Below are positions 9,126 through 57,567 of a stretch of 64,000 nt of DNA, piece by piece. A program made the position numbers and the translations under genes. The stretch spans positions 1 to 64,000 of the forward strand of contig JAIRYV010000009.1 in the NCBI GenBank assembly GCA_031267685.1. Reading direction: 5' to 3'. How positions within the stretch are numbered: the stretch's first letter is position 1; each line of letters begins with the position of its first letter. The notes beneath the pieces were generated by a model that saw only the letters and a program-made list of their open reading frames with translations, ran no database searches and was not told the DNA's origin. The stretch is from Treponema sp. (GTDB taxonomy: Bacteria > Spirochaetota > Spirochaetia > Treponematales > Breznakiellaceae).

Positions 9126-9722
9126 AAAAATCTCCTTCGCGGTTTTGTGTCCCGCCTGACAAAGTAACTACAAGCTTACTCTACAGTGTTCCCCATAAGC
9201 AACGCTTATTTCGGGTAACAACCATTTCACATACCAGACCGTATACGACAAAGCCCATATACCGTCTGTTTTCGCGGCGCTTCTCGCAGCTAATGGCTGC
9301 TTTCATGGAACATCTCCCGCGTTGTACGCCTCTCATGCGCGTACCGCATATCCGTCATACGTATTGTTGTTCTCTCTACTGCCTCCCTTTTTCTTTAAAC
9401 TCCGTCTCAGGTATACCCAGGCGGTTCGCAAAGTTGTGGTAACTAATGACCCATCTGGTATACGCGCCGAGGTATCGGCGTTCCTGAATGGGTAAATGAG
9501 TGCTTGACATGCCGTTTTTTAAGAGAGTATAATTGGAGCCGAGAGGAAGATAAACGATAAGCAAGCAGATGTTCAGTAGACATCTGGCGTTTCTTCAAGT
9601 CCATAAAGAAGATTATAGTGGGCTGTATAAAAGTATCAAGTGGTTTGAGAAGATTTTTTTAAGAAACGACGGACTGTGTGTTGGCGTTTTCTGCTCAGGT
9701 AAAGCGGGAGGATGAACCATAC
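9126..9722. other. Divergent regulatory region of unit A, duplicated at 10953-11400
   Basis: Roughly 9237-9395 and 9523-9680 are about 90% identical by eye to 10955-11100 and 11217-11375. The region separates the minus-strand barrel gene from the plus-strand membrane-protein pseudogene and holds a consensus-like promoter and a hairpin (arms CAGATGT and ACATCTG). No gene is seen. Confidence 0.75.
9504..9533 (+). promoter_or_regulatory. Sigma-70-type promoter, unit A
   Basis: TTGACA (9504-9509) and TATAAT (9528-9533) with an 18-base spacer reading toward the membrane-protein pseudogene. Both hexamers are perfect. The equivalent in unit B (11197-11228) has the same boxes with 20 bases between them. 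Confidence 0.7.
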
Positions 9723-10083: not shown

Positions 10084-10151
10084 GGTACTCTACACTAGTG
10101 TGGATTAGTTCCGCACTAGTGCGTAGTTACTCTACACTAGTGTGGAATACA
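10084..10151. repeat. Cluster of three CACTAGTG palindromes
   Basis: Three near-copies of the palindrome TCCACACTAGTGTGGA lie within 60 bases, at about 10093, 10113 and 10134, between the two decayed genes. One more copy stands at 8431-8443 where the unit A lipoprotein remnant ends. They could be a terminator cluster of the lipoprotein gene or the scar of a small palindromic element. Confidence 0.55.
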
Positions 10152-10952: not shown

Positions 10953-11196
10953 ACTGTATACGACAAAGCCCATATACCGTCTGTTTTTGCGGCGCTTCTC
11001 GCAGCTAATGGCTGCTTTCATGGAACATCTCCCACGTTGTACGCCTCTCATGCGCATACCGCATATCCGTCATACGTATTGTTGTTCTCTTTACTGCCCT
11101 CCTTTTCCCTTCACTGCTCTTGGCCATATTCTTCCTTGCAATTGTTCTATAATGAGGGAAAAGAGTGCAGCATTAACTTCCTAATGACACTGGTAC

Positions 11197-11228
11197 TTGA
11201 CAAACCATCTTTTTTAAGATAGTATAAT
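11197..11228 (+). promoter_or_regulatory. Promoter of the 509-residue membrane protein gene
   Basis: TTGACA at 11197-11202 and TATAAT at 11223-11228, with 20 bases between; a TAGTAT at 17 bases is an alternative -10. By homology with the 18-base spacing of unit A, the spacer here has grown. Confidence 0.5.
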
Positions 11229-11493
11229 TGGGAACTGGGAGGAAGATAAGCGGTAAGCAAGCAGATGTTCAGTGGACATCTGGCGTTTCTTCAAGTTCAT
11301 AAAGAAGATTATAGTGGGCTGTAATAAAAGTGTCAAGTGGTTTGAGAAGATTTTTTTAAGAAGCGGCGGACTGTGGTGATGCCCATCCTTGTACGTGCGT
11401 TTTGAAACTGAGCAGCGTTCAAGATGGAGGAATTGGTCTTTTCTTCTTGCCTTAACAGGGATTATGATCTCCCTGTAAGATGAAAATAAGTTA

Positions 11494-32075: not shown

Positions 32076-32729
32076 TTACGGTACGACAGCGCTTACAAGC
32101 ATGCCCCAGGGTCCTTTTTCCCCTTTGCTATTTTCCCACCGCAAGCAGAAGTATACTCGTTGCCCCTGTTTATCACTGGTGAATACAAAGGTATGAGGCG
32201 TCCGTGTCGAGAATTCCGAATTAACCAAGTCTTCTGCCTTAGCGGGTGCTTCGGCCCGAAGTTCCCAGCGAATCTCTGCGCCATGTACCCCTTTAGGTTT
32301 TCCCCGTTGCTTAGTTGCCTCGTCCCAGAAACGCACGGACAGTCGGCTCGGAACAGACGTGTTGATATCGTATTCTGGGAATGTCGCGGGCGGCGGCACG
32401 GGCGTAGGCTTCGTATCATGAATAGGAAGTCGCATCTTGTCGCGGTCATTGTCGCTCACGAAAGGACTGTAAAGCAGAAACGCCTTGATGAAAGTACGCA
32501 AAGCTTTTTCAAGTGCCTCGCGCGCGCGGTTCTTATTCGCGATGTCCACCGTACCTTTGTTCGGGTCAATGGCTTTAGTGTATGCAGCTTCCCAAGTTGT
32601 GTTCAAATCCAGAATCGGCTGAAAGATTCCGTCTTGAATGTTGAACACGGTAAGATGAGTCTGCACATAAGCGATCAGACCTTTAACCCATATTACAAAA
32701 TCAACGTCTTTCTTTGGGATATAACCCAT
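32076..32729 (-). CDS. Conserved hypothetical protein with helical N-half and Fn3-like C-half
   Basis: 217 residues. The N-terminal half is helical (AREALEKALRTFIKAFLLYSPFVSDNDRDKMRLP), followed by a proline-rich link (DTKPTPVPPPATFPEYDI). The C-half resembles a fibronectin-III-like beta sandwich that ends in the striking segment VYFCLRWENSKGEKGPWG. The pattern (AREA..ALR.FIKA, GVHGAEIRWEL, FCLRWEN..GEKGPW) recurs in hypothetical proteins of treponemes and Bacteroidetes, but no function is known to me. No signal peptide. AGGAGG lies 7 bases before the ATG. Confidence 0.8.
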   Translation of the reverse strand: MGYIPKKDVDFVIWVKGLIAYVQTHLTVFNIQDGIFQPILDLNTTWEAAYTKAIDPNKGTVDIANKNRAREALEKALRTFIKAFLLYSPFVSDNDRDKMRLPIHDTKPTPVPPPATFPEYDINTSVPSRLSVRFWDEATKQRGKPKGVHGAEIRWELRAEAPAKAEDLVNSEFSTRTPHTFVFTSDKQGQRVYFCLRWENSKGEKGPWGMLVSAVVP

Positions 32730-32796
32730 AATAACATCCTCCTAAATTGTCAATAATCTTATACCTAAAGGCATAGGCTTTACAATAGTATTGATC

Positions 32797-33195
32797 GTCC
32801 GCCCGTCTCGGACGATCGTCCGCATAGACCAGACGATCGTCCGCCCGTCTCGGACGATCGTCCGTATAGGCTAGACGACTGTCCGCCCGTCTCGGACGAC
32901 TGTCCGTATAGGCTGGACGACTGTCCGCCCGTCTCGGACGATCGTCCGCCCGTCTTGGACGATCGTCCGTATAGGCTGGACGACTGTCCGCCCGTCTCGG
33001 ACGATCGTCCGCATAGACCAGACGATCGTCCGCCCGTCTCGGACGATCGTCCGTATAGGCCGGACGACTGTCCGCATAGACCAGACGATCGTCCGCCCGT
33101 CTCGGACAACTGTCCGCCCGTCTCGGACGATCGTCCGTATAGACCAGACGACTGTCCGCCCGTCTCGGACGATCGTCCGGCCATCTCAGACGATC
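32797..33195. repeat. Array of 19 tandem 21-bp units (array 1)
   Basis: Nineteen exact-length units begin GTCCG. Each has a variable core: CCCGTCTC in about eleven units, CATAGACC or TATAGRCY in seven and GCCATCTC in the last. Units end GGACGATC, AGACGATC or GGACGACT. Most are hairpin-forming, since GTCC near the start pairs with GGAC near the end. Core types alternate irregularly. Because 21 is divisible by 3 and no stop occurs in a unit, several frames are open throughout and look like 7-residue repeats; none has a convincing start. It lies between the hypothetical gene at 32729 and the MCP gene. Confidence 0.95.
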
Positions 33196-33287
33196 GTCCA
33201 AGATGCGTGGAATACGGTGTCCATACACAGAGCTTATGTTAAATATATTGTTTCTCTTTTCACTATTCAATTCATCAACCCTAGGTT

Positions 33288-38067: not shown

Positions 38068-38598
38068 ATGGTTATGGGACACCAACGAATACTAGAAGAC
38101 GGAGCGCTCTATCACGTTACCTCGGAAATTGACCGAAACGAAATGGACCTCCAATCGTCGTGGATCAAGGAAATACTCTTGACCTTCATCAAAAAAGCAA
38201 AAGAAAAGTACCCTTTTGAGCTTTTCAACTTCTGTATCATGGATAATCACATCCATTTACTCATCAAACCGGAAAAGGGTCAGTCTCTTTCCATCATAAT
38301 GCAGTGGATCAAGGGGAATTTCGCCCGCTACTGGAACAAACTGCACAATAAAAAAAGTGGGCATCTCTGGGGAAAACGGTTCTTTTCGAAGATTATCAAT
38401 GATGTAAGGCAGTTTGTGCAAGTATTTAAGTATATAGATCAAAATCCCAAACGGGCTGGCCTAGTTAAAGAGGCTGAGGACTGGACGTTTGGCGGCTTAT
38501 ATCATCACCTGTGCGGAAGGACGGATGTAGTAGATATACCTCGGATAGCTATCCTGGAGGTATTCTTCCTCGGCAAGATCCCTGAATGGGTTCGGTGA
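38068..38598 (+). CDS. REP-associated Y1 (IS200-like) transposase
   Basis: 176 residues. Single-strand HUH nuclease fold: ALYHVTSEIDRNE strand, the HxH motif NHIHLLI (H61, H63), and the catalytic tyrosine Y122 in FKYIDQNPKRAG, with GHLWGKRFFSKII between. The tail after Y122 is that of the domesticated RAYT group rather than IS200. No mobile ends are obvious, but REP-like palindromes lie just upstream. It appears intact. Confidence 0.85.
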   Translation: MVMGHQRILEDGALYHVTSEIDRNEMDLQSSWIKEILLTFIKKAKEKYPFELFNFCIMDNHIHLLIKPEKGQSLSIIMQWIKGNFARYWNKLHNKKSGHLWGKRFFSKIINDVRQFVQVFKYIDQNPKRAGLVKEAEDWTFGGLYHHLCGRTDVVDIPRIAILEVFFLGKIPEWVR

Positions 38599-47121: not shown

Positions 47122-47656
47122 TTTCACAACGCTCCCTTCTTGCAGCAACAGTAATATAGTTCTATAGTATATGCATTGCAATCCCTTGCCAGCTAGTCAA
47201 CGGGGCATAGTTTTGGAGTGCTTTCCCGATCAGGCCAGCTCTGGGCTTAGGCTTCGCGGGATCCTGTATGATGAACACCGTTCCCGGACGATTGCCAACG
47301 CCCCCAGCCCCTTGACTTTAACGGTGTCCCTTACATACACCAGCGCTGCAATGTGGATGATCCATTCTGTCGACAGAATGAAGCATTCTGTCTTCCGGAT
47401 GATCCATTCTGTCGACAGAACACGTCAGCCGTTTCAAACGGATGACCCATTTAGAGTCGTAATCTCAGCCCTGAATCACTAAAGCCTGTTCTGCATAGCG
47501 TAACACAGGGCAGCATTGAACCGCTTCGGTCATTTCCGAGCAGTCAGAAAAGTCCGTGTCCTTTGGGAGATGACCGGAGAAACACACATTCTTGACTGGC
47601 ACAAATGTTCTTGCGTATCCTTGCCGAACATTGACTAATGTACCTATATTATAACA
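47122..47656. other. Divergent intergenic region (methyltransferase / MarC protein)
   Basis: About 530 bases. It holds a small cluster of 21-bp units (47359-47421) and, near 47630-47655, an AT-rich likely promoter for the plus-strand gene (TTGACT then TATATTATAAC). A minus-strand open frame from about 47465 runs into the MarC gene but shows no recognised family. Confidence 0.5.
47359..47421. repeat. Three tandem 21-bp units (array 3)
   Basis: Units 1 and 3 (47359-47379, 47401-47421) are identical except for the last base; each holds the palindrome ATTCTGTCGACAGAAT. Unit 2 (47380-47400) shares GCATTCTGTC and a GGAT end. Period is exactly 21. The following 22 bases form another degenerate unit. 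Confidence 0.75.
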
Positions 47657-56952: not shown

Positions 56953-57435
56953 GGGGACAGAGACGATATGGACGGGAACGGAAGAAATGGGGATGGGAAC
57001 GGAAGAAATGTGGGCGGGAACGGAAGAAATGTGGACGGGAACGGAAGAAATGGGGATGGGAACAGAAACGATGTGGATGGGAACAGAAGAAATGGGGACG
57101 GGAACTATGACGATGAGGGCGGGAACCATGACGATGGAGGTGGGAGCAGAGACGATGTGGTTGGGAGCAGAGACGATGGGAACAGGAACCATGACGATGA
57201 GGTTGGGAGCAGAGACGATGGGTATAGGAACGGTAACGATTGGGTTGGGAGCAGAGACGATGAGGGCGGGAACCATGACGATGGAGGTGGGAGCAGAGAC
57301 GATGGGAACAGGAACGGTAGCGATTGGGTTGGGAGCAGAGGCGATGATGGTGGGAATCATGACAATGGAGGTGGGAGCAGAGGCGATGATGGTGGGAATC
57401 ATGACAATGGGAACAGGAACCATGACGATGGGGGC
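56953..57435. repeat. Array of 23 tandem 21-bp units (array 2)
   Basis: Twenty-three units, each exactly 21 bases, begin GGGA or AGGA. Units fall into types by the next bases: AACGGAAGAAATG early in the array, then AACCATGACGATG, AGCAGAGACGATG, AACGGTAACGATT and AATCATGACAATG, each followed by a variable 5 to 6 base tail such as GGGAT, GAGGGC or GGAGGT. The plus strand is purine-rich. Most frames stay open because of the period and encode 7-residue repeats such as GNRNDVD; none has a credible start. It separates the RluA gene from the sugar transporter operon. Confidence 0.95.
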
Positions 57436-57567
57436 GGGAAAACAGGTTAGGCGCTTTGCTCAGCAAATAGCAGAATTATCCATGTTTTTTGCAAGTCAGT
57501 CTATGTTATACAGAATACCAACAGAGCTAATCTGAATGTATGAAACAAGAAAACAAGGAGACAGTGA

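Follow-up and report, generated by a model that had tools for sequence, protein, structure and literature searches.

The window, a stretch of 64,000 nucleotides of Treponema sp. DNA, includes a tandem array adjacent to the gene of a 217-aa protein. The features considered are the following:

32076-32729, minus strand: putative cognate gene of the array, 217 aa, with a helical N-domain (residues 8-98) and an Fn3-like C-domain (118-215)
32730-32792, minus strand: 63-bp linker between array and gene, with AGGAGG at 32738-32743, a possible -10 element TATAAG at 32758-32763 and a possible -35 element TTGTAA at 32780-32785
32797-33195, no strand assigned: tandem array of 19 units of 21 bp with inverted half-sites GTCCG and CGGAC alternating (TRF 32793-33199)
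38068-38598, plus strand: Y1_Tnp (RAYT-like) transposase gene, domain match 38149-38445, one of nine in the genome
56953-57440, no strand assigned: orphan array of 21-bp period, about 23 units, no family gene adjoining
10086-10150, no strand assigned: short orphan array of 21-bp period, 3 units (TRF), tentatively assigned to the system
47357-47420, no strand assigned: short orphan array of 21-bp period, 3 units with TTCTGTCGACAGAA palindromes (TRF), tentatively assigned

Cutting positions 32797-33195 into 21-mers gave exactly the 19 units of invariant length that a sequence-only reading had counted, and the unit ends that it described as conserved were present in all 19 units (GTCCG) and in 18 of the 19 (GACGA). 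Ten distinct units were found, the commonest being GTCCGCCCGTCTCGGACGATC with 7 of the 19 copies, and ten columns are conserved. The half-sites GTCCG and CGGAC lie in opposite orientation, spaced by about 12 and 9 bp (sum 21), and as they alternate inverted, palindromes are formed both within the units and across every junction (GGACGATCGTCC). In single-stranded form the array folds with a z-score of -8.6 relative to dinucleotide shuffles. The open frames noted earlier are present on both strands, as is expected of a period divisible by three. The Rfam search of the array gave no match. A CRISPR was considered and rejected, as the core types recur and the 21-bp units have no unique spacers.

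The start codon of the 217-aa gene lies 63 bp downstream of the array end. The sequence-only reading had missed both this gene, which belongs to a paralogous family, and the existence of dozens of such arrays. The candidate -10 and -35 elements of the linker are separated by a 16-bp spacer and abut the array, and the promoter assignment is weak (9/12; null rate 23%). No family match was found for the protein in Pfam, NCBIfam, PHROGs or PADLOC; it has no Y1 (HUH) transposase domain and no Pfam domain at all. The AlphaFold model (pLDDT 93) has three long helices and, C-terminal to them, a beta-sandwich. In the fold search the C-domain gave fibronectin type III matches only and the N-domain no significant match. 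The usual partners of Fn3 domains are proteins. The Fn3-family protein has a pI of about 7.5 with near-neutral domains, and in the family neither a recognisable DNA-binding domain nor conserved catalytic residues were found, the invariant positions being glycines and prolines.

The genome itself includes 44 matches to the 217-aa protein, a few of them pieces of one gene, corresponding to about 40 paralogues. Relatives were detected in 22 of the 59 related genomes, but in only four of the 296 sampled across the phylum. A scan of GTDB contigs found them almost only in gut metagenome genomes (Treponema, other Spirochaetaceae, Prevotellaceae, Tannerella and Planctomycetaceae) and in Geminisphaera colitermitum TAV2. 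Nearly all the carriers are termite-gut genomes of four phyla, the termite origin being partly deduced from isolate names. Plasmids, phages and viral contigs had no relatives of the protein, and plasmids had no match to the array either. The Fn3-family genes have no recurrent neighbour that could be an operon partner, and the ORFs that recur most fall inside the array region.

A 21-bp-period array was found with TRF upstream of the gene in 73 of the 79 family loci, distributed among four phyla, with a median distance of 73 bp between array end and start codon; two of the six loci without an array are cut by a contig end. The unit sequences vary from member to member and the period is constant. 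The statistics for the own genome, a MAG of 82% completeness, were calculated from a 1.06 Mb sample of stretches (40% of the genome) with simple ORFs as gene calls. Searching this sample for the same 21-base period, a check proposed together with the first description of the array, produced 57 arrays, and further arrays had periods of 23 (26 arrays), 22 (6) and 24 bp (3), the peaks being at 21 and 23. A 21-bp array was present at most 250 bp upstream of 21 of the 32 family genes versus 28 of the 953 other genes (P = 3e-22), and none of the 32 had a 22-24-bp array beside it. Compared with column-permuted controls, the units were more palindromic at p ≤ 0.05 in 43% of the family arrays; the majority of arrays are thus not significant individually. 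Many contigs of the genome end within 21- or 23-bp arrays (C2, C19, C23, C38, C49, C57, C71, C105 and others); the assembly breaks there, and the number and length of the arrays are therefore underestimated.

Clustering by the best 21-mer joined 28 array pairs at four or fewer mismatches versus three pairs for the reversed sequence, and close paralogues have a common unit class. Altogether 16 of the 33 orphan 21-bp arrays matched a family array of the same genome with at most 3/21 mismatches, as against 1/33 both for the reversed sequence and for family arrays of other genomes. These satellites occupy intergenic slots, some of them between convergent genes. About half of the orphan arrays, including those in the window, have no mate. 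The class of the 19-copy array is a singleton with one weak orphan match (3/21), and it is absent from 29 relatives. The 19-copy array is no isolated minisatellite but one member of a large set of arrays that are period-locked, paralogue-specific and coupled to a protein family. Other repeats were also seen: an array with a period of about 53 bp (TCTGGCACTGGTGTGGACG...) on contig C36 of the same genome (stretch L024, 2680-3153), and a stretch of about 400 bp present twice in the window with high similarity (about 9230-9660 and 10955-11370; GTATACGACAAAGCCCATATACCGTCTG...), probably a duplicated intergenic element.

A corresponding scheme was observed in a second protein family, with a different period. 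The proteins concerned combine an HU-like DNA-binding domain (PF14848) with an Ig-like DUF4469 domain (PF14734) and are related to PDB 4fmr. They have 14 matches in the own genome, and 22-24-bp arrays were present at nine of these 14 loci and at about 15 of 17 in relatives. The relatives include G037, a complete genome from a different family of the order, in which two of the three HU-DUF4469 loci read had an array. These arrays mostly lie no more than about 60 bp past the stop codon, and several of them have 2-8 near-exact satellites. In the sample the periods never cross-pair between the Fn3 and HU-DUF4469 families. The arrays are one-sided in both, 5' of the gene in the Fn3 family and mostly 3' in the HU-DUF4469 family, with no two-sided flanking. 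The 217-aa protein has neither PF14848 nor PF14734, and its helical N-domain is unrelated. The arrangement of an N-terminal DNA-binding and a C-terminal Ig-like domain, together with multigene expansion, is that of other HU/IHF-superfamily proteins with Ig-like domains, here beside 22-24-bp arrays; the family of the window differs from these in its N-domain and its 21-bp arrays. That the scheme recurs independently in a family whose DNA-binding domain is recognised is what chiefly leads us to interpret the arrays as binding sites. Burroughs and colleagues are said to have proposed in 2017 that expanded HU proteins act against invasive DNA. In G037, two HU-DUF4469 genes are each preceded, at a distance of a few hundred bases, by a pure 8-bp TTCACAGC tandem tract of 10-14 copies (L223 643-755, L230 692-772) that resembles a phase-variation tract.

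In comparisons between genomes, arrays become less alike as their proteins diverge (Mantel rho -0.21, 0/500 permutations). Among proteins sharing 40-60% identity, 18-39% of the array pairs were alike (at most 5/21 mismatches), and with length matching 10-32% of the arrays versus 0-2% of the linkers. The unit sequence is thus co-inherited with the protein, tracking its similarity where the adjacent non-coding DNA no longer does. Below 80% identity, pairs share the unit class with similar frequency on the two strands, which agrees with the expectation for double-stranded DNA. A shared class was predicted better by the identity of the C-domain (AUC 0.80) than by that of the N-domain (0.67).

In the sister species (G001), the neighbouring proteins of which are 87-94% identical, both gene and array are missing at the window site, and 492 bp of other DNA lies instead between the hydrogenase and the MCP-like gene. 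The orthologue of the sister species (78% identical) is on a different contig and has an unrelated 21-bp array, so that specificity must change quickly. The orphan array at 56953-57440 is also missing there, the flanks remaining alignable up to a few bases from its edges. The DNA replacing it (L195, about 2556-2832) looks like the decayed remains of a 21-bp array from a different class, with weak autocorrelation at 21. According to this comparison, gene position, array presence and unit sequence turn over fast and the period is kept. Both selection on spacing and a protein-binding array, suggested from the sequence alone, fit these results: from one paralogue or species to the next the units change in sequence but retain the 21-bp period, and the period goes with the protein family encoded alongside.

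Strong sigma-70-like TTGACA/TATAAT pairs (at least 10/12) were located in the interval from array to gene at 17% of the loci versus 3% in shuffles, and at these loci the promoter thus probably follows the array. In 59 of the 73 loci the array is cut off from the start codon by an in-frame stop, the frame of the gene is closed within 33 of the 68 arrays, and the count of open frames ranges from 0 to 6. These results leave virtually no room for a translated heptapeptide repeat, which the open frames and the period divisible by three could have suggested. The array could also be transcribed, with hairpins that function at the RNA level, as a leader or as small RNAs, and to which the neighbouring protein binds. 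The strong single-strand folding and the position of many arrays upstream of the start codon are consistent with this, but a promoter between array and gene in a subset of the loci, the conservation of the unit class irrespective of strand, the mostly 3' position of the HU-family arrays and the lack of an Rfam match make it quite unlikely. Origin as a neutral minisatellite by slippage, an option left by the sequence-only reading, would agree with a tandem, intergenic repeat of quick unit turnover; the tie between period and protein family, the upstream association (P = 3e-22), the class pairing of satellites and the conservation reaching beyond that of the linker render it extremely improbable.

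Palindromic repeats are known as the cognate repeats of RAYTs (PMC2817692), and the genome has nine Y1_Tnp matches, one of them in the window. It is nevertheless very unlikely that RAYT-like Y1 transposases made the arrays, as intact Y1_Tnp genes are mostly flanked by different repeats, palindromic and of the GTGTCAGACAC type, no more than two such genes are near tandem arrays of known units, and the arrays accompany the Fn3 and HU-DUF4469 families instead. The likeness to REP/BIME and RAYT systems (REPtrons; PMC2817692, PMC3116915) is in organisation: a fast-evolving gene, its own palindromic repeat class alongside, and dispersed intergenic copies. A gene-specific palindromic class dispersed in the same genome is present also here, the class of the window having a single weak match, while the repeat on both sides of the cognate gene is missing. 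Differently from the RAYTs, which are Y1 nucleases, the present proteins have no recognisable catalytic domain, and the arrays are long and tandem with a period fixed per protein family. This organisation also speaks for a selfish REP-like module, in which gene and array spread together, the protein or a helper seeds the satellites as non-autonomous copies, and any regulatory effect is secondary. The empty site in the sister species and its orthologue elsewhere with an unrelated array, the patchy occurrence among termite-gut bacteria of four phyla, and satellites placed in intergenic slots, some between convergent genes, agree with such spread. On the other hand, there are no conserved catalytic residues and no recurrent accompanying gene, and the absence at the site could reflect deletion or rearrangement; on balance this explanation appears rather unlikely.

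The reading that we favour, with a probability of about 0.6, is that the 19-copy array is the predicted binding array of the neighbouring 217-aa protein. More generally, gene and array probably form a paralogue-specific module in which each protein would bind its own palindromic array. Adjacency, fixed period, paralogue-specific classes with satellites, co-inheritance, the recurrence of the scheme in the HU-DUF4469 family and fast turnover were observed; physical binding, dimerisation, helical phasing and autoregulation are inferred. The 217-aa protein, probably as a dimer, would contact the inverted half-sites in the array beside its gene. As the period of 21 bp corresponds to two helical turns, successive proteins would be placed on one face of the helix and could form an ordered nucleoprotein stretch by the start of the gene, and copies of the same class elsewhere would be satellite sites for the same protein. 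The likeliest immediate consequence would be autoregulation of the gene together with marking or structuring of the satellite loci. As to purpose, the array may serve autoregulation, chromosome marking, selfish spread or defence; the usual position of the HU-family array 3' of the gene speaks against a general role in promoter control. Iteron arrays and single-protein plasmid partition sites, such as par of pSK1, consist of repeats of about 20 bp upstream of the gene of the protein that binds them, with autoregulation. The present loci share with these an array of repeats of about 20 bp directly upstream of the gene of a putative binding protein, but they are chromosomal, with dozens of paralogous pairs per genome, and the neighbour survey found no replication or ATPase partition gene linked to the family gene.

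No earlier description of such loci was found in the open-access literature searched. Tentatively, termite-gut bacteria of several phyla may share an unrecognised genome-addressing system, with dozens of mutually orthogonal protein/array pairs in each genome; two unrelated families would have built it, each fixing a period of its own (21 or 22-24 bp), co-diversifying protein and site, and moving between species. If binding is confirmed, these genomes would contain many natural, mutually exclusive pairs of DNA-binding protein and site, so that specificities could be set side by side among members of a single family, and a function would be gained for proteins so far without an assigned one. The abundance of fixed-period repeats and the frequent assembly breaks in such genomes would then also be explained, and the period of a repeat would prove to be something that can be set by the protein using it.
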